The position numbers and the translations under genes were made by a program. From Pseudomonas sp. RC10 (GTDB lineage: Bacteria; Pseudomonadota; Gammaproteobacteria; Pseudomonadales; Pseudomonadaceae): a stretch of 64,000 nt of DNA. Below are positions 51,766 through 60,606 of the stretch, piece after piece. Below the pieces are notes generated by a model, which was not told where the DNA came from, did not search any database, and saw only the letters and a program-made list of their open reading frames with translations. The DNA lies in contig NZ_CP151650.1 in assembly GCF_038397775.1 (NCBI RefSeq), positions 1,860,001 through 1,924,000 of the forward strand. The letters are read 5' to 3'. Positions within the stretch are counted from its first letter, which is position 1; every line of letters begins with the position of its first letter.

Positions 51766-52707
51766 TTAAATGTTTTTCATTGGCGCAAAGATAGGTCGAA
51801 TGCCACGACACTTCGGATAATCCCCACAGCCCCAGAAATTACCACCGGCGTTTGCGCCAGTGCGAGCGACGCGGATCACCATCGGTTTGCGGCAATGCGG
51901 ACAAGCGGGCGGCTTGGGCAAGACCGGCGTTGCCACTGGCTCTTCAGGCGCTTGTTCAAAAACCACCGCCGCTGGCTGCATCGGCTCAACCACCGCAGGC
52001 TCAACACGCTCGGGCGCCATTTCAGTCGTTGGCCGAGGACTTGGCTTGCGCGTCTCGACAATCCATTGCCGCAACACGTTCCCGTCCACCAATTGCAGAT
52101 TGCGCCCTGAAGCAAAGTCCCACGCCTGCCTGGTAAACGTCCCACTCGTCACCACGAACCCGCCGACAGCCCCCTCGGCCGCCATCGCCCCGTACAACTC
52201 CCGCACCACCGGCACACCCACCTGCACCGCGCGCCATTGCTTGCACTGCACCAGATAGGTTTCACCGTCCTTGCGCGCCACCAGATCAATCCCGCCGTCC
52301 GGCCCGCGCCCGCCCGTGTCCTGCACCTTGAAACCGCGACGACGCAACGCCTCACCCACCAGCAACTCAAACTCGCGCCAACTGATCCTCAGCAACGTAT
52401 TGCCGCCTGGGGTGGTGACGGATTTCAACAACGTGCGTGATCGGAAACGGCGGAAGAGCGAGGCGATGGTTCCGCAGCCGAAAATGAACGGCAGCGCGTA
52501 CTGGCCAATGCTCGCCGCCATCCGCGTCACGTTGCCGATGACGAGCGACTGAAACTGATGCGGATCGCCAGAGAACGCCGCTGGGGCAGACGAGGCTACC
52601 GCGTGCAGGCCAATGCCTGACACCAACGCAACCGAAAGACTGAGCCACCAGGGCAATTTGCTGGCGATTACAAAAAGGTCGTCAAACAGAGAAGATTTCT
52701 TGGCCAT
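51766..52707 (-). CDS. Membrane-anchored Mrr-like endonuclease with zinc ribbon
   Basis: 313 residues. Two hydrophobic segments (about 16-38 and 62-82) precede an Mrr_cat nuclease domain (residues 107-215): SWREFELLVGEALRRRGF, DGGIDLVARKDGETYLVQCKQW (catalytic Asp and QxK), VVREL. A Pro-rich linker then leads to a topoisomerase-type zinc finger CPHCRKPM...WGCGDYPKC (residues 268-300). The family is linked to restriction of modified DNA, but membrane anchoring and zinc ribbon are unusual and could mean another DNA-processing role. Weak start context. Confidence 0.85.
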   Translation of the reverse strand: MAKKSSLFDDLFVIASKLPWWLSLSVALVSGIGLHAVASSAPAAFSGDPHQFQSLVIGNVTRMAASIGQYALPFIFGCGTIASLFRRFRSRTLLKSVTTPGGNTLLRISWREFELLVGEALRRRGFKVQDTGGRGPDGGIDLVARKDGETYLVQCKQWRAVQVGVPVVRELYGAMAAEGAVGGFVVTSGTFTRQAWDFASGRNLQLVDGNVLRQWIVETRKPSPRPTTEMAPERVEPAVVEPMQPAAVVFEQAPEEPVATPVLPKPPACPHCRKPMVIRVARTGANAGGNFWGCGDYPKCRGIRPIFAPMKNI

Positions 52708-53676: not shown

Positions 53677-53916
53677 ATGCTCTTCATCCTCGGAATCTTC
53701 CTAACCTGCACCGCCTACTACCTGCTCGACCGAAAACTCATTCACAAATCCCCTCGAAAGTGGACTGGCCTTGTCCTCATAAGCGTTGGAGCCACAGCGA
53801 CCTTCACGCTCGATTCCCACATAGACGACTTCTTCATCTGGGGCTTCGTCGTCGCTTGGTGCATTGGCCTGGAACTGTTCTTCAACTGTGAGAAATACAA
53901 GGTTTACTACGGGTAG
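53677..53916 (+). CDS. Small membrane protein, second of a pair
   Basis: 79 residues with the same layout as its neighbour: MLFILGIFLTCTAYYLLDRKL, basic loop KSPRKWTGLVLISVG, then IDDFFIWGFVVAWCIGLELFF. AGAGGACTAAATCCG precedes the ATG. The shared K(P/S)xRKW-x-G-L-x-L-I pattern suggests an old duplication. The pair is probably one bicistronic unit. Confidence 0.68.
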   Translation: MLFILGIFLTCTAYYLLDRKLIHKSPRKWTGLVLISVGATATFTLDSHIDDFFIWGFVVAWCIGLELFFNCEKYKVYYG

Positions 53917-54373
53917 CGTTGGACGCCCGGCGCAGTGCAAAGGGGTTGCGCGATTAACATCTCATCCCCATCGCAGCACCTGAACCGCCATTCTCCACCA
54001 AGGCTCACGCGACTTCCGCTCGCTGGCGCCACTCGCACCTCATCCTGCAGGCACGGCACCACTTCATCGGTAATCCAGCGCTGCAACGTCCGATCCTCCC
54101 GGTTGGAGTGATACGTCAACAGCGCATACACCGACGACTCACTCACCACCAACGCCTCTTCTTCACCTTGCCAATCGACCAGCGTCACCACCCGACCCTG
54201 ATCCACATCCAGCTTGCGCGTCGTGCGCTCGTTCAGCGGCCAGCCCCCTGAGAAGGCCGAGATCGCCGGCGCAGAACCAGACTTCGGATTCCAGGAAGAA
54301 GATGCGTAGGGGGGGGGAGGTTGTGGCGGTGGAAGGTGGTGGGGGAGAGGGTCTTGGCAATGTCCGTATCTCT
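53907..54373 (-). pseudogene. Frameshifted Bro-N antirepressor-like gene
   Basis: Read across three frames this gives a Bro-N (phage antirepressor) domain: TLSPTTFHRHNLP, then LRIFFLESEVWFCAGDL, then GWPLNERTTRKLDVDQGRVV continuing into VVSESSVYALLTYHS and LQRWITDEVVPCLQ. The frame is lost at a run of nine C (minus strand, near 54309-54317) and again at a run of five G (near 54244-54248); one base fewer in each restores a single frame. Either a decayed prophage gene or homopolymer sequencing errors. The start is not determined. Confidence 0.75.
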
Positions 54374-54715
54374 TCTTGATAGCCTTCCATGGCTAAGGGT
54401 GTCGGGAGCTAAGAAACCCCAAAGTAGTAAACGGGCCGGACGTATTCCCCTCACGGGTCTTTTATTAGCCCAATCCCGACATAGCAGAGATTTTACGACG
54501 CGCAGGCGAGGGCCACAGGCGCAAAAAAGCCGCATCTATTGGGAGCGGGCTGGCCGCTACTTTTTGAGTTTCTGCTGCGTTTCTTACGCGCCGAGGCAGG
54601 GTAGGTGCCGACGCTCAACGTATCAAAAGCAGATGTTGTAGGACGCTTCCGAAGCCTAGTCCGTTGCGGGAGGAGCGAGGGAAAGGGACGTGCCTTCCCC
54701 TTGACGTGGACCAGA
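54374..54715. other. Intergenic region upstream of the Bro-N remnant
   Basis: 342 bases with no gene I can support. A minus-strand frame (to 54535) runs into the Bro-N fragment and could be its leader peptide or an overlapping phage-type gene, but has no start site. GGGGAATACG and CGGCTTTTTTGCGCC are visible on the minus strand. This marks the left edge of the AT-rich island. Confidence 0.45.
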
Positions 54716-55111
54716 TCAGATTGGTTGCCAGCTACTAATGCCAGGGCGATGTTCGCTTGTATTTGCTCGAATCAGGATGCAATGGAGCGAGCCTGCGTTA
54801 TCAAAACCGATGATGACATTGTCATCTTCTCTTGCTTGATCCATCACTTGGTTGCCCTGAAAGTAGAATCTGTATTCAGACCGGGTCTCATGGTTCTCAC
54901 GGGCGTCATACCACGTAGCCTTGGCCACTTGAGAAATGTCCTCGCCACGGATCGAAAACGTCGTAGAGAACTCTCTACGCTCGGGGCCAAAAATTTTTTT
55001 TAGCTCAGACACACCGTTGAATTCATGCTGGTTGGAGCGCTCGGGACGCGCTTCAACCGCAGAAAGCGTTTTAATGCAGGCGGGTTTGAGTACTATCGTT
55101 TTTTTTGACAT
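54716..55111 (-). CDS. Stand-alone EcoRII-N-like DNA-recognition protein
   Basis: 131 residues, start ATG preceded by AAGGACAAACGCG. The segment AKATWYDARENHETRSEYR (residues 63-81) parallels ARAIYYNSR followed by KTRNEKR in the EcoRII N-terminal domain, whose Arg94, Glu96 and Arg98 read CCWGG; Arg77, Glu79 and Arg81 correspond here. The strands NVIIGFDNAG and LHCILIRANT fit the B3-like barrel that follows. The EcoRII C-terminal nuclease domain is absent and is not encoded downstream. It is divergent from the Dcm-type gene. Family inference is from memory of EcoRII and needs a profile search. Confidence 0.6.
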   Translation of the reverse strand: MSKKTIVLKPACIKTLSAVEARPERSNQHEFNGVSELKKIFGPERREFSTTFSIRGEDISQVAKATWYDARENHETRSEYRFYFQGNQVMDQAREDDNVIIGFDNAGSLHCILIRANTSEHRPGISSWQPI

Positions 55112-55350
55112 CGCGTTTGTCCTTGATTGCGCTATTGAGATCTGCTCGGCCTGCCACTTGGGTCGTTGGAGTGTAGGCGTCCTAGGAAATGGTGGCATAC
55201 AGCCTTCAATTCAAGATGGCAGTCTGTTTTTTTTGGATCCATCCTATTTTGGAGACCTCAGGTGCTCAGAAAAGAACGATTTACATTTCACGATATAGGG
55301 ATAGAATGGTGACCATTCGTCACAGATTTGACCCAGAGGTCGCTGGATTC
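55112..55350. promoter_or_regulatory. Divergent control region between EcoRII-N-like and dcm-like genes
   Basis: About 240 AT-rich bases must contain both promoters. The methyltransferase has a helix-turn-helix-like N-terminus, and related methyltransferases can repress their own divergent region. An alternative methyltransferase start at ATG 55306 (AGGGATAGA upstream) would shorten this region. No clear palindromic operator recognised. Confidence 0.4.
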
Positions 55351-56778
55351 ATGTCCGCTACAAAATCCCCTACACTTGAATTTTTCCCAGCCATTGAGCT
55401 ATCTTCGGAGTTCGAGATGCATCCCGTCGAAGATATGGCGCTTATTCGAAAATTGCTTGAAATATACGATCAAGGCCAATTAGCAGCTAAATTAAAAGAA
55501 ATAGGGTCATCGCACTGCCGTGAGACAATAAATCGCTGGATGAAAGGGAAGGCCTCTCCGCGCTTGAATTATCGCGAGCACACATATCTGCATTCGCTAC
55601 TTCCCGTACGACCAAAATATAAGAGCTTATTTACATTCATTGATTTGTTTGCAGGGATTGGCGGCATTAGGAAAGGATTTGAATCCATTGGGGGTGAATG
55701 TGTGTTTACGTCTGAATGGAATCCGTATGCGGTAAGAACCTATAAAGCTAATCATTTCTGCGACCCTAATAATCATACATTCAATAAGGATATTCGTAGT
55801 ATAACGTTATCGGATGCTCCGGGTGTTAGCGATGAAGAGGCATATCAAAATATTAAACAGAAAATTCCAGATCACGATGTGTTGCTCGCCGGTTTTCCAT
55901 GCCAGCCATTCTCGCTAGCTGGAGTTTCAAAGAAAAATTCTCTCGGACGTAAGCATGGGTTTGAATGTGAAACCCAAGGAACATTATTTTTTGACGTTGC
56001 TCGTATTATCGCAGCAAAACGGCCTGCGGCTTTTCTGCTGGAAAATGTAAAGAATCTTAAGAGTCATGATAAGGGCAATACCTTTCGAGTAATTTGTGAA
56101 GCTTTGGATGAGTTAGGATATTCTGTCGCAGATGTTGACGCGCCTAAAGGAAACGATCCAAAAATTATAGATGCTAAACATTTCCTTCCTCAGCACCGTG
56201 AGCGTATTGTTTTAGTTGGATTCCGTCGTGATTTGAATGTCCACGGCGGATTTACCTTGCGCGATGTTTTGAAATTAATTCCAAGTCATCGCCCTAGTTT
56301 TGGGGATTTGTTAGATGAGAGTTATGATTCGAAATACATTCTCACTCCTGGGCTGTGGGACTATCTATATAAATATGCAGAAAAGCATCGTAAGAAGGGT
56401 AATGGCTTTGGGTTTGGATTAACTAGGGCAAATGACATTGCTCGCACGCTTTCCGCTAGATACCATAAAGATGGTTCTGAGATTTTAGTTGACAGAGGGT
56501 TTGTGGAAAGCCTTGAATTTAATGGTGAGTTCAACCAGCTACATAGGCCTAGAAGGCTTACTCCTCAAGAGTGCTCGAGACTAATGGGTTTCGATAAGCC
56601 GGGGGAAAGTAAGTTTATTATTCCTGTTTCTGATACTCAAGCCTACAGGCAATTTGGGAATTCTGTCGCCGTGCCAGTATTCGAAGCTGTTGCACATTTG
56701 ATGAAAGACCGAATCTTGGCTGCGAAAGCTAAATTATCTGATGAAAGACATCAGTTAGAGTTTTCACTGCCTAATTGA
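55351..56778 (+). CDS. dcm: DNA (cytosine-5) methyltransferase, Dcm type
   Basis: 475 residues, close to the 472 of Escherichia coli Dcm when started at ATG 55351. N-terminal helical region with [17 protein letters not shown], then motif [21 protein letters not shown], motif [16 protein letters not shown] with the catalytic Cys, motif VI ENVKNL, motif [15 protein letters not shown], the target-recognition region, and motifs IX-X ([22 protein letters not shown]). The match to Dcm includes the recognition region, so 5-methylation of the inner C of CCWGG is predicted. It protects DNA against a CCWGG nuclease. AT-rich codon use marks it as acquired. Confidence 0.93.
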
Positions 56779-56800
56779 GTGTATTGATACGATTTATATG

Positions 56801-56827
56801 CAGTTCGGGCATTTTTATGCCCGACTG
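56801..56827. promoter_or_regulatory. Hairpin between dcm and vsr genes
   Basis: CAGTTCGGGCAT and ATGCCCGACTG pair with a single bulged T and a loop of four T residues, 22 bases after the dcm stop and 21 before the vsr start. No T-run follows. It may trim or stabilise mRNA and set the dcm-to-vsr expression ratio. Confidence 0.5.
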
Positions 56828-56847
56828 CCCTAGCGAGGTGTAGTGTT

Positions 56848-57318
56848 TTGACTGATATTGTCGATGCTGCAATTCGATCTAAAATGATGTCTGGCATTAA
56901 GGCTAAAAATACTTTGCCTGAAGTGTTGGTTCGTAAAGGATTACATTCCCGAGGCATACGGTTCCGTATTCATGCCGATAATCTGCCTGGAAAACCTGAT
57001 TTAGTGCTGCGGAAGTATAGCGCGGTCATATTTATACATGGTTGCTTTTGGCATGGTCACGCATGTAGGTATTTTAAAGTTCCAAAGACTAGAAGTGAAT
57101 TCTGGATCTCCAAGATTCAAAGTAACCAACAGCGCGATCAACTCCATATTGATGAGCTAAGTGAGGCTGGGTGGCGTGTGATGGTAGTCTGGGAGTGTGC
57201 TACCAGACTAATGAGGAAGGGCCACGAAGCAAATCTTGTTGATTTGATTGTTAAATGGTTGAATGGAAGCGGATGTTTTGCTCAAATTGATGAGCATACC
57301 CTTGGAGGCAGTGAATAA
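56848..57318 (+). CDS. vsr: Very-short-patch repair endonuclease
   Basis: 156 residues; nicks the T strand at T:G mismatches made when 5-methylcytosine in CCWGG deaminates. Start is TTG with GAGGTG upstream. Family motifs are intact: TRSKMMSGIKAKNT-like N-terminus (AIRSKMMSGI), PGKPDLVLRKY with catalytic Asp, IFIHGCFWHGHAC with the metal-linked His, and FWISKIQSN, GWRVMVVWECA. It follows the dcm-type gene as in Escherichia coli. It shares the AT-rich composition. Confidence 0.93.
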   Translation: MTDIVDAAIRSKMMSGIKAKNTLPEVLVRKGLHSRGIRFRIHADNLPGKPDLVLRKYSAVIFIHGCFWHGHACRYFKVPKTRSEFWISKIQSNQQRDQLHIDELSEAGWRVMVVWECATRLMRKGHEANLVDLIVKWLNGSGCFAQIDEHTLGGSE

Positions 57319-57389
57319 GCGTTGATTTAAATTGATTTCTGTAGAGCGATCCAGATAGTCGTCTAGATCGCTCTAATAGATCGCTTATC

Positions 57390-59186
57390 TCAACTTGAGG
57401 ATTTTCTTCGATCAAAGAACGTTCGCAAAAGAATAACTTCAATAGGGTCTATCCCTGGAACTGGTACTGTAAGTGTATGAGTTGCTCCTGAAAAAAAGCC
57501 TACGGCTATTGAATCTAGGTCAAATCCAGAGTTTTTTAACGCTTGTTCATTAGCATCCCATGCGATCAGTAAATTGATGTCTGAGAAATTTTTCTGCTTT
57601 TCTTGAAGATCTTTGATCAAAGAGTCCAAGTTGTGCTTGAATTCTATTATCGAGTCTACCACTTGGCCGTCAGGTGAAGTGTATATGGTATGCATATCAT
57701 ATCGCGCAGAATAGCCGGTCTTCAGTGTTTGGTATCCTTTAATTACCCCTGCGCCCAAAAGTTCGTGAAATATAGCGGCGACAGCTGCCTCCTGATTATT
57801 AGGGATTTTCGCATACTGAATATGTGATTCATTAAGGTCTGCTAGGCCTTTCGCCGCAACCCATTCCGCTTGAAGTTCTAACTTCCGCTGGATGCTCGTT
57901 TTTTGTGCTTCTGAAGGTGTCGCTCTTGCATCCCCTTGGTAGACAGCAATATCTTCGAATTTGCTGAATACTTCTGATACTGCTGCTTGGAGGCGTCGCA
58001 CATATTTGTAGTGTAGAGACTTTCTTCCTAGATCAAATTTCAGATCTGATGACTCTACCAAGAAAAAACACCTCTTATAATAGGCTGGGTACCTACCTCC
58101 TGGCTTGGGCTCAATTTTCATCCCCGTAGGCATTCCCTTTGTGCCAACAAATATTCCGCTTTGGAAAAGAGTGGCTCCTTCCGATTCATCCTCGTCGCTA
58201 GAGCATAATGCTAAAGTGGATTTCGATAATTGTTTAAATGTATCGTTATCTGGGAACATCACGCCATACACGTCAATAGACCAGCCATCTATTGCCCGGC
58301 GTTCAGATACATAAACGGTCTTCGAGCCAAGATACTTGCGTTTAGCTGATGCATCGTTCTTACTTACGAACGCGTCTCTAACCGTTTGTAGTGGGATTCT
58401 ATTGCTAGCTGTGACTAGTTCGTGAGGTTTAGTATAGGTACTATCGATTTTTTCTGTAGATGAGCCAGACGGTAGGTTTGTAGTTAGATAGAAATCGAAC
58501 TCCAACGCCTCCGCGGGGTTAAAGAGCTGGCTAGTTACACCAGCTGCGGTGCGGCTTAGAATCAGGACCTTTAGCTGTTGAGCTGTGAGGTGGAAAATAC
58601 TTGTATCATCACTGGGTGTAATGTTTCCCACTGAAATTTTTGTGTAGGAGTCGAGTGGATATGTGGATTGAGTATCGTTGGATATGTTAAGATTTACACT
58701 GTATTTTTCTGGTAAACCTTGAATGTTTTGGTCTGCTGAGAAGAATGGTTTGTTACTGCCGGGATAGTCATTGAGCCAATTCTGTGCTGCGACTACGCTT
58801 CCGCCGTAAGCTTCCTTACCTGCGATTCGGCTTGTAATTAAAAAATTGTTTCCTGAGAAAACAGCATACGTTAGCCCAACTCCTTTCTCACCCACCTCCT
58901 TTCCAATCCCATCTTTGTCCCCTCCTCCAGGGGCGAGCATTTCATGTATCTTTTCGCTAGGTATTCCAATGCCGTTGTCTAATGCTGAAACACTGTTGTT
59001 AGAGGAGTCGATCTCAAGGTGGATAAAAAAAGGGCCTAGCGCGCCGGTTTGTTTTTTTCTGCTGATAGCATCGCGAGAGTTCTGCAAGAGTTCAGCCAAT
59101 AGATCCCAGTAGTGATGATAGCTATCTCTTATTCCTCGGATCTCTTTTCTGATAGCCACGTCGCTGCGATTGCTAAGGAAATCCAT
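57390..59186 (-). CDS. GHKL ATPase fused to a PD-(D/E)XK-like nuclease domain
   Basis: 598 residues, convergent with vsr. The N-terminal GHKL/Hsp90-type ATPase has ELLQNSRDA (Glu32, Asn36), DNGIGIP (70-76) and GEKGVGL (99-105), and a transducer-like middle domain follows. Near the C-terminus RYDMHT (Asp497) and VVDSIIEFK (Glu515, Lys517) give D-x17-E-x-K, as in PD-(D/E)XK nucleases, followed by INLLIAWDANE. GHKL ATPases of MutL/MORC type linked to methylase genes are known from comparative genomics. This one likely is an ATP-gated nuclease or regulator acting with the recognition protein. GAGGCAAAGTAA precedes the ATG. Confidence 0.82.
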   Translation of the reverse strand: MDFLSNRSDVAIRKEIRGIRDSYHHYWDLLAELLQNSRDAISRKKQTGALGPFFIHLEIDSSNNSVSALDNGIGIPSEKIHEMLAPGGGDKDGIGKEVGEKGVGLTYAVFSGNNFLITSRIAGKEAYGGSVVAAQNWLNDYPGSNKPFFSADQNIQGLPEKYSVNLNISNDTQSTYPLDSYTKISVGNITPSDDTSIFHLTAQQLKVLILSRTAAGVTSQLFNPAEALEFDFYLTTNLPSGSSTEKIDSTYTKPHELVTASNRIPLQTVRDAFVSKNDASAKRKYLGSKTVYVSERRAIDGWSIDVYGVMFPDNDTFKQLSKSTLALCSSDEDESEGATLFQSGIFVGTKGMPTGMKIEPKPGGRYPAYYKRCFFLVESSDLKFDLGRKSLHYKYVRRLQAAVSEVFSKFEDIAVYQGDARATPSEAQKTSIQRKLELQAEWVAAKGLADLNESHIQYAKIPNNQEAAVAAIFHELLGAGVIKGYQTLKTGYSARYDMHTIYTSPDGQVVDSIIEFKHNLDSLIKDLQEKQKNFSDINLLIAWDANEQALKNSGFDLDSIAVGFFSGATHTLTVPVPGIDPIEVILLRTFFDRRKSSS

Positions 59187-59293
59187 TTACTTTGCCTCGA
59201 ATTAGGGTGTTTGATGGAAGGGCTGGTTGTTCACATATGTATCATGATTTATTAGAAAGGCGGTCAACACTTTCTGTAGTGGTTATTCAATCT

Positions 59294-59330
59294 ACAAAAA
59301 AGCCAAGAGGATTATTCCTCCCCTTGGCTC
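59294..59330 (-). terminator. Intrinsic terminator of nrdB
   Basis: AGCCAAG...CTTGGCT stem with inner GAGG/CCTC pairing, followed on the minus strand by TTTTTTG, 29 bases after the nrdB stop. It also marks the right edge of the AT-rich island. Confidence 0.88.
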
Positions 59331-59358
59331 AGTGTTGTAGCGAATAATTTGTGGGTAA

Positions 59359-60606
59359 TCAATCCCAGCTCAAAGCCCCACCCGTCTGATACTCAATCAC
59401 TCGCGTCTCAAAGAAGTTCTTCTCTTTCTTCAAGTCCATGATCTCGCTCATCCAAGGGAACGGGTTCGTAGTCCCTGGATACTCCTCCTTCAACCCAATC
59501 TGCGACAACCGACGGTTAGCGATGAACTTCAGATAGTCCTCCATCATCGCCGCATTCATACCCAGCACCCCACGAGGCATGGTGTCGCGGGCGTATTCGA
59601 TCTCCAGCTGGGTGCCTTGCAGGATCATTTGCGAGGCTTCTTCCTTCAGTTCGGCGTCCCATAGGTGTGGGTTTTCGATTTTGATCTGGTTGATCACGTC
59701 GATGCCGAAGTTCAGGTGCATGGATTCGTCGCGCAGGATGTATTGGAACTGTTCTGCGACGCCGGTCATTTTGTTGCGGCGGCCCATGGAGAGGATTTGG
59801 GTGAAGCCGCAGTAGAAGAAGATGCCTTCCAGAACGCAGTAGTAGGCGATCAGGTTGCGCAGCAGTTCTTTGTCGGTCTCGACGGTGCCGGTGTTGAATT
59901 CCGGGTCGGAGATGGCGCGGGTGTATTTGAGGCCCCAGGCGGCTTTTTTCGCGACTGACGGGATCTCGTGGTACATGTTGAAGATCTCGCCTTCGTCCAT
60001 GCCCAGGGATTCGATGCAGTACTGGTAGGCGTGGGTGTGGATCGCTTCCTCGAAGGCCTGGCGCAGGATGTACTGGCGGCATTCAGGGTTGGTGATGAGG
60101 CGATACACGGCCAGCGCGAGGTTGTTGGCAACCAGAGAGTCGGCGGTGGAGAAGAAGCCGAGGTTGCGCATGACGATGCGGCGTTCGTCGTCGGTCAGGC
60201 CTTCCGGGTTACGCCATACGGCGATATCGGCGGTCATGTTGACTTCTTGCGGCATCCAGTGGTTTGCGCAGCCGTCGAGGTACTTCTGCCAGGCCCAGTC
60301 GTACTTGAAAGGCACGAGTTGGTTGAGGTCGGCGCGGCAGTTGATCATGCGCTTTTCGTCGACAGCAACGCGCGCGGCGGAGCCTTCGAGTTCAGCCAGA
60401 CCTTCGGCGATGTCGAGTTTGTCCAGCGCGGCTTTGGCGCGGGCGATGGCAGCGGAGTCGTTGGCACTGACGGCGCGTGCATCGCGAGCGGCAGCACCAC
60501 CGGCGCTGTCGAGTTTGTCCATGGCAGCTTCCGAAGCGTGGCCAGCGTTGGCGCCTTTGGCGGGTTCAGCGGCGTCTTCTTTGTCGAATTCGTCCCAGCT
60601 CAGCAT
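59359..60606 (-). CDS. nrdB: Class Ia ribonucleotide reductase, beta subunit
   Basis: 415-residue small subunit that holds the diiron-tyrosyl radical cofactor for deoxyribonucleotide synthesis. The metal and radical region includes [23 protein letters not shown] and [10 protein letters not shown] with the iron-ligand Glu and His residues. The N-terminal 75 residues are an Ala/Lys-rich extension beyond the Escherichia coli protein, typical of pseudomonads. It ends GGALSWD, the C-terminal tail that docks on NrdA. AGGAGACTC precedes the start. Confidence 0.95.

Follow-up and report, generated by a model that had tools for sequence, protein, structure and literature searches.

We analysed a stretch of 64,000 nucleotides (nt) from Pseudomonas sp. 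RC10 (GCF_038397775.1, NZ_CP151650.1), hereafter the window, whose numbering is used throughout, and in it an AT-rich island coding for a small protein that resembles the N-terminal domain of EcoRII (EcoRII-N, a B3 fold), a Dcm-type methylase, Vsr and a GHKL ATPase-nuclease. A sequence-only reading had taken these four adjacent genes for one restriction system in which CCWGG recognition and cleavage are split between two proteins. The open reading frame (ORF) listing of the window placed the four ORFs at 54716–59186, and their positions and families agreed with that description. The island and its parts are as follows.

54560–59357, no strand: AT-rich island between a degenerate gene and nrdB (similarity breakpoints and GC content).
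54716–55111, minus strand: stand-alone EcoRII-N (B3) protein of 131 amino acids (aa), predicted to read CCWGG and lacking a nuclease domain (structure, profile and residues).
55351–56778, plus strand: Dcm-type C5-cytosine methyltransferase, predicted CCWGG (PF00145, NCBIfam and recognition block).
56848–57318, plus strand: Vsr mismatch endonuclease (PF03852/TIGR00632, E 2e-29).
57342–57375, no strand: hairpin with 14-nt arms, 93% complementary, and 6 nt between them (inverted-repeat scan), terminator-like, in the gap where vsr and the GHKL gene converge.
57390–59186, minus strand: GHKL ATPase with an S5-like middle domain and a C-terminal D-x17-ExK segment, a paraMORC3-like predicted nuclease (Pfam, alignment and structure).

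The 131-aa protein, hereafter the reader, is given at the length recorded for it in the database (P0001); its ORF extends without a stop as far as an ATG at 55198 (160 aa). Neither Pfam, PADLOC and NCBIfam nor the PDB sequences held a match to it, and the profile of its family gave three chance-level matches only against PDB sequences. Structure prediction, proposed in the sequence-only reading as a check on its EcoRII-N assignment, upheld it: in the model (predicted local distance difference test score, pLDDT, 89.6), EcoRII-N on DNA was the sole Foldseek match at E ≤ 0.001 (1.8e-4, probability 1.00). In another structure comparison, EcoRII-N tied with plant B3, LlaJI.R1 and BfiI domains. Homologues within 0.55–1.75 times the reader length numbered 514, of which the best 120 were listed and 84 aligned, and the profile of these 84 relatives matched the N-terminal part of enzymes of about 400 residues with EcoRII-C as their C-terminal part, the latter assigned with a local profile and confirmed by Pfam in L022, L037, L043, L063 and four genomes (loci are given by L numbers). 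A chance resemblance to EcoRII-N was rejected because structure and profile agree, and by its model the 131-aa protein has the EcoRII-N (B3) fold.

Aligned with the EcoRII-like L063, the reader residues H29, R77, E79 and R81 correspond to EcoRII H36, R94, E96 and R98, which we take to be effector-site residues. Their equivalents were kept in 31/31 solos (stand-alone readers), 59/59 A1-like full-length enzymes and 7/7 of the 145-aa subunits described below; five of 64 full-length rows that are unlike A1 (L007, L022, L037, L043 and L063) stand outside these counts, and in L022 and L037 part of the R-x-E-x-R stretch is visibly missing. In a quick tree, 30 of the 31 solos formed one group, with the window protein nearest L002 and L003; the fragments L032 and L063 were left out of both the tree and the residue counts. 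We infer that the 131-aa protein would bind unmethylated CCWGG. EcoRII-C is absent from the protein itself, and a PF09019 search, positive in 3/3 control genomes, did not find the domain elsewhere in the RC10 genome, so that a recognisable EcoRII-C encoded elsewhere was rejected. The family of about 130 residues is often labelled 'type II restriction endonuclease' in databases; no nuclease domain is recognisable in it.

The methylase ORF is open from 55189, and homologue lengths make the ATG at 55351 the more likely start (475 aa). The protein matched PF00145 (E 6.7e-78) and DNA_meth_N and scored 745 bits for PRK10458, the Dcm subfamily of NCBIfam, whose cut-off is 710. Its recognition block also occurs in the methylase beside an E. 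coli EcoRII-C enzyme, from which we infer CCWGG specificity. The Dcm-like and Vsr assignments of the sequence-only reading thus held, the latter at the Pfam E-value given above. In L040 (L040:11218–12948), a 576-aa ORF matched both the Dcm and the Vsr queries and is an apparent methylase–Vsr fusion.

The surroundings of the solo reader were compared in 33 loci, consisting of 31 from genome contigs, the viral contig L118 and the window; duplicate or short loci (L094–L096, L104, L105, L110 and L111) and the contig-edge locus L057 were set aside. The local profiles for EcoRII-C, SNF2, MORC, HNH and the 145-aa EcoRII-N protein derive from these loci themselves, and Pfam or PADLOC served as a check on only some of their members. 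An EcoRII-C-bearing enzyme was found in 15/33 solo loci. Six others (L002, L003, L006, L013, L014 and L118) encode SNF2, MORC and HNH proteins together with a separate EcoRII-N subunit (about 145 aa, PF09217) that is distinct from the solo in all six. Three have LlaJI-type enzymes (L017, L044 and L020, the last with SNF2 and MORC as well), one (L035) the DISARM genes DrmA, DrmB and DrmC along with Zorya genes, and one, the window, a GHKL gene. In four others (L008, on a 3.7-kb contig, L015, L018 and L019) a C5 methylase is present but no cutter was recognised. The DNA around L008, L013, L014, L043 and others is short, and absences there are weak. The restriction endonucleases in 13 of the 15 EcoRII loci have a recognisable reader of their own (A1, E2N or PF09217 above cut-off). 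In L035, from Cytobacillus, the solo lies between ZorA/ZorC/ZorD-like and DrmA/DrmB/DrmC genes, beside a base-excision glycosylase-like gene (L035:1582–19087). In L101 and L102, from Pseudomonas genomes, the gene that converges with that of the EcoRII-type enzyme codes for a relative of the HNH nuclease found in SNF2-MORC-HNH operons.

A C5 methylase was present in the surrounding DNA of 28/33 solo loci; among the five loci with none nearby, four genomes have one elsewhere and one metagenome-assembled genome has none. The motif G-x-GFG-x-G occurred in 25/28 solo-linked methylases versus 4/7227 other ORFs, and also in the E. coli methylase beside the EcoRII-C enzyme; 24 of the 25 motif-bearing methylases carry the longer window-type block, from which that of L118 differs. 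The solo and Dcm genes are 79–83 bp apart in L015, L018 and L019, in whose genomes EcoRII-C was not found (1/1 control genome positive). Among the best 120 homologues of each, reader and Vsr clusters shared six matching contig sizes, one of them from this genome, versus 0.7 for shifted sizes; the matching used the longest contig per cluster, and two of the six sizes are short (1284 and 1514) and may be due to chance. Reader relatives are encoded in 11 IMG/VR viral contigs, one of which, L118, has a solo in its SNF2-MORC-HNH locus; the reader was not matched in 50,697 phage records.

Considering these results, we tentatively favour a reading in which the solo reader is a CCWGG-reading accessory whose role lies chiefly with modification, in which it would occupy or guard sites not yet marked. 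Its support comes from the fold, the conserved recognition residues, the association of the family with Dcm-type methylases that share a block, and the change of cutter from locus to locus. Since homologues coexist with cutters that own an EcoRII-N domain, calling the 131-aa protein the missing half of EcoRII would be too simple. A modification-side role is favoured on two grounds: the majority of the EcoRII-type and SNF2-MORC-HNH cutters encoded alongside possess a reader already, and solo–Dcm pairs persist without a recognised cutter. We propose the following scenario. Dcm, Vsr and the divergent reader gene may form the modification unit of the island, in which Dcm would methylate CCWGG and Vsr would repair the resulting T:G mismatches. 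The reader would recognise the same site as Dcm and act in trans, occupying CCWGG sites that Dcm has yet to methylate, and the occupied sites would be guarded or marked against any CCWGG-directed cutter present. Such a role would explain why the solo is retained alongside Dcm where cutters differ or are missing. The convergently expressed GHKL ATPase-nuclease would be a second component of the island, serving as an autonomous defence or as the current cutter for the Dcm mark.

Several observations weigh against a modification-side role. No methylase lies within 10 kb of the solo in L009, L016 and the fragment L032, where no cutter was recognised either, and the methylases of L017, L020, L044, L152 and L153 lack G-x-GFG-x-G. 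The quick tree has many open forks, and the long-branched full-length row L121 sits among the solos. The solo is also rare: the reader profile matched 9/298 genomes of the genus Pseudomonas, with a stand-alone protein in three, and 5/398 genomes of the phylum, among which that of the window is the only stand-alone one. Furthermore, the solo gene lies on the same strand as effector genes and within about 130 bp of them in L006, L011, L013, L014, L023 and L118, and a Moritella plasmid has a more distant solo that begins 4 bases downstream of an MvaI-like cutter, itself without an EcoRII-N match.

The last two observations fit better with a cutter-side sensor, in which the solo EcoRII-N protein would sense the effector site in trans and deliver or license the nuclease of its locus, as the EcoRII N-terminal domain does in cis. 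UbaLAI consists of a B3 domain fused to an MvaI-like nuclease, and the Moritella pair resembles a split version of such a B3–MvaI enzyme; the title of PDB entry 5o63 likewise gives UbaLAI a B3 domain. We nevertheless regard this explanation as unlikely, because a reader is already present with most EcoRII-type and all SNF2-MORC-HNH cutters and because solo–Dcm pairs are kept where no cutter is recognised.

The GHKL protein of the window was described in the sequence-only reading as an ATPase with a D-x17-ExK motif. The protein matched HATPase_c_3 (E 1.4e-7), and in predicted structure comparisons its ATPase part folds like those of Hsp90, TopoVI-B, GyrB and MORC3. The family numbered 266 among 8000 scored candidates, with the best 120 listed and 75 rows aligned; the motif residues (D497, E515 and K517), of PD-(D/E)XK type, were invariant in this alignment, as was E475. 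The GHKL and S5 ATPase module typical of paraMORC3 is present, and the protein is possibly a nuclease of paraMORC3-like architecture with an autonomous role in defence. DUF4263 was not among the 12 Pfam families matched by the 75 homologues at E ≤ 0.1, so that membership of Shedu by this domain was rejected; in PADLOC, the window protein was unmatched and its relatives gave TmtA and other weak matches only. The family occurred in 3/298 genomes of the genus at E < 1e-30, and in the 398 genomes of the phylum it was found as the window copy only at E ≤ 1e-50 and in two genomes at E ≤ 1e-25. A relative in L115, 65% identical, lies about 2.4 kb from an integrase-like gene, so labelled by inspection of its sequence, on a contig from a viral collection; another GHKL relative, P0121, stands at 85%.

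Under the sequence-only reading, the 131-aa protein would be the CCWGG sensor of this GHKL nuclease and the four genes one split restriction system. A single insertion of about 5 kb holds all four genes, EcoRII-C was not found in the genome while 3/3 control genomes were positive, and GHKL ATPase-nucleases are placed in restriction–modification operons in the available part of Iyer et al. (2008, PMC2292703). Five further GHKL loci (L107, L108, L109, L115 and L116) were compared, the weak or fragmentary L113, L114 and L117 being set aside; two of them have a C5 methylase (L107 and L115) and one has Vsr (L107). However, the reader was absent from all five, and the GHKL family from all 32 other solo loci. 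The GHKL family shared zero contig sizes with the reader and zero with Vsr among the best 120 of each, a list in which the GHKL protein of the window itself does not appear. Furthermore, vsr and the GHKL gene are convergent, with the hairpin between them, and VcSduA, a GHKL-type Shedu nuclease built in a similar way, gives protection by itself and depends on both its ATPase and its nuclease residues, according to the accessible sections of its description (PMC12137116). The gene-neighbourhood comparison suggested with the sequence-only reading thus found no co-conservation of the four genes in the sample, an outcome that the sequence-only reading itself had named as refuting. A detached EcoRII-N subunit beside a GHKL ATPase and a nuclease is real, but as another protein, that of about 145 aa in the SNF2-MORC-HNH operons; for the 131-aa protein, a role as dedicated sensor of the GHKL nuclease is unsupported, and we consider the system as originally drawn improbable.

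The solo B3 protein could instead be a transcription regulator, acting as a controller that senses the CCWGG methylation state of promoters in its locus. B3 is a transcription-factor fold, and in the window, L004, L012, L022 and L031 the solo gene and dcm point away from each other. Upstream (300 bp) of the 33 solo ORFs, however, four CCWGG sites were found versus 12.3 expected from their own dinucleotides, and none was found upstream of the window reader gene or its dcm ORF. These counts bear on CCWGG operators and leave room for others; a regulator with CCWGG operators was rejected as the leading idea, and we hold a controller role to be quite improbable.

The AT-rich insertion beside nrdB described in the sequence-only reading was corroborated by composition and by comparison with relatives. 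The GC content is 0.42–0.49 across the four genes versus 0.57–0.58 in the flanks, and DNA similarity to nine relatives starts at the nrdB stop (59353–59359); the left border is approximate, the last similarity being at 54558, in L133. In L134 and L135, left-flank-like sequence lies 0.2–0.4 kb from nrdB and the island stretch is absent, so that about 5 kb is extra in the window. The relative L133 has other cargo downstream of nrdB (724-aa and 287-aa genes, L133:6282–9322), so that the site is an integration hotspot. Such a site would speak for the solo and GHKL genes as leftovers or neighbours gathered there with no joint role; this is nevertheless very improbable, since most solo ORFs are full-length with invariant recognition residues (L032 and L063 are fragments) and the reader has 514 homologues of comparable length. 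The hairpin was absent from the listing of the terminator scan, and it may therefore be called a terminator only provisionally; a promoter scan of the window found eight candidates versus 8.4 in shuffles, showing no excess. To the left of the island, the degenerate gene (53907–54390) persists as short pieces in different frames only; a longer version adjoins nrdB in L135 and L139 and lies beyond the other cargo in L133, and inspection of the sequence alone led us to read it as antirepressor-like. Some 2 kb to the left of the island there is an Mrr-type nuclease gene with a zinc ribbon (51766–52707); in L015 and L021, genes of the same cluster are found no more than 8 kb from the solo reader.

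A wider form of the favoured modification-side reading is that the solo family is an effector-independent CCWGG site guard, a constant partner of Dcm common to EcoRII, SNF2-MORC-HNH, LlaJI-type, DISARM and possibly GHKL defence, in which the reading of self and non-self would be portable, apart from methylase and cutter. We consider this generalization doubtful. A reader that is kept beside Dcm as cutters are exchanged would, if real, be a recognition or guarding component common to restriction–modification, DISARM and MORC-type systems, and would open a simple route to the question of how self-cleavage is avoided while methylation lags.

A detached EcoRII-N-like protein as such is an already known kind, since the available part of Iyer et al. 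(2008, PMC2292703) outlines MORC-SNF2 operons with EcoRII-like or HNH nucleases and a VP1/RAV (B3) protein. The openly licensed literature, as far as accessible, held no description of an effector-independent solo reader, or of one with DISARM or LlaJI-type systems; within that literature, what appears new here is the solo reader as a second EcoRII-N protein and its presence with DISARM or LlaJI-type systems. With those MORC, SWI2/SNF2 and HNH (or EcoRII-like) operons, as far as the same source describes them, the window shares a single locus that brings together GHKL, nuclease, Dcm and Vsr with a detached EcoRII-N-like protein, and six of the 33 solo loci resemble the MORC-SNF2-HNH kind. The window differs in having no SNF2, HNH or MORC gene by local profiles, and in the MORC-SNF2-HNH loci the solo reader comes in addition to the 145-aa subunit, as a separate EcoRII-N protein. 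The GHKL protein has in common with paraMORC3 and VcSduA, as the accessible text presents them, the GHKL domain, the S5-like middle and the C-terminal PD-(D/E)XK-type motif; for paraMORC3, Iyer et al. (2008, PMC2292703) report genes next to methylases and Vsr as well as genes standing on their own. The GHKL protein differs from VcSduA and Shedu in the lack of a DUF4263 match among its 75 homologues and of a PADLOC match of its own. The reader shares with the N-terminal effector domain of the type IIE enzyme EcoRII (PF09217; PDB 3hqf and 1na6) the fold, the equivalents of H36, R94, E96 and R98 and the linkage to Dcm-type methylation. Unlike that domain, it is a separate 131-aa protein without the EcoRII-C nuclease, and PF09217 misses it and is also not among the 25 families in the matches listed for its 84 relatives. 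Finally, in UbaLAI and in CglI/NgoAVII, where B3-PLD proteins act with a separate ATPase and isolated B3 domains bind the cognate site (PMC4267653, in the sections available), a B3 or EcoRII-N-like module is likewise reused with another nuclease. There, in the same sections, the reader is fused to the nuclease, whereas in the window it is a stand-alone gene.

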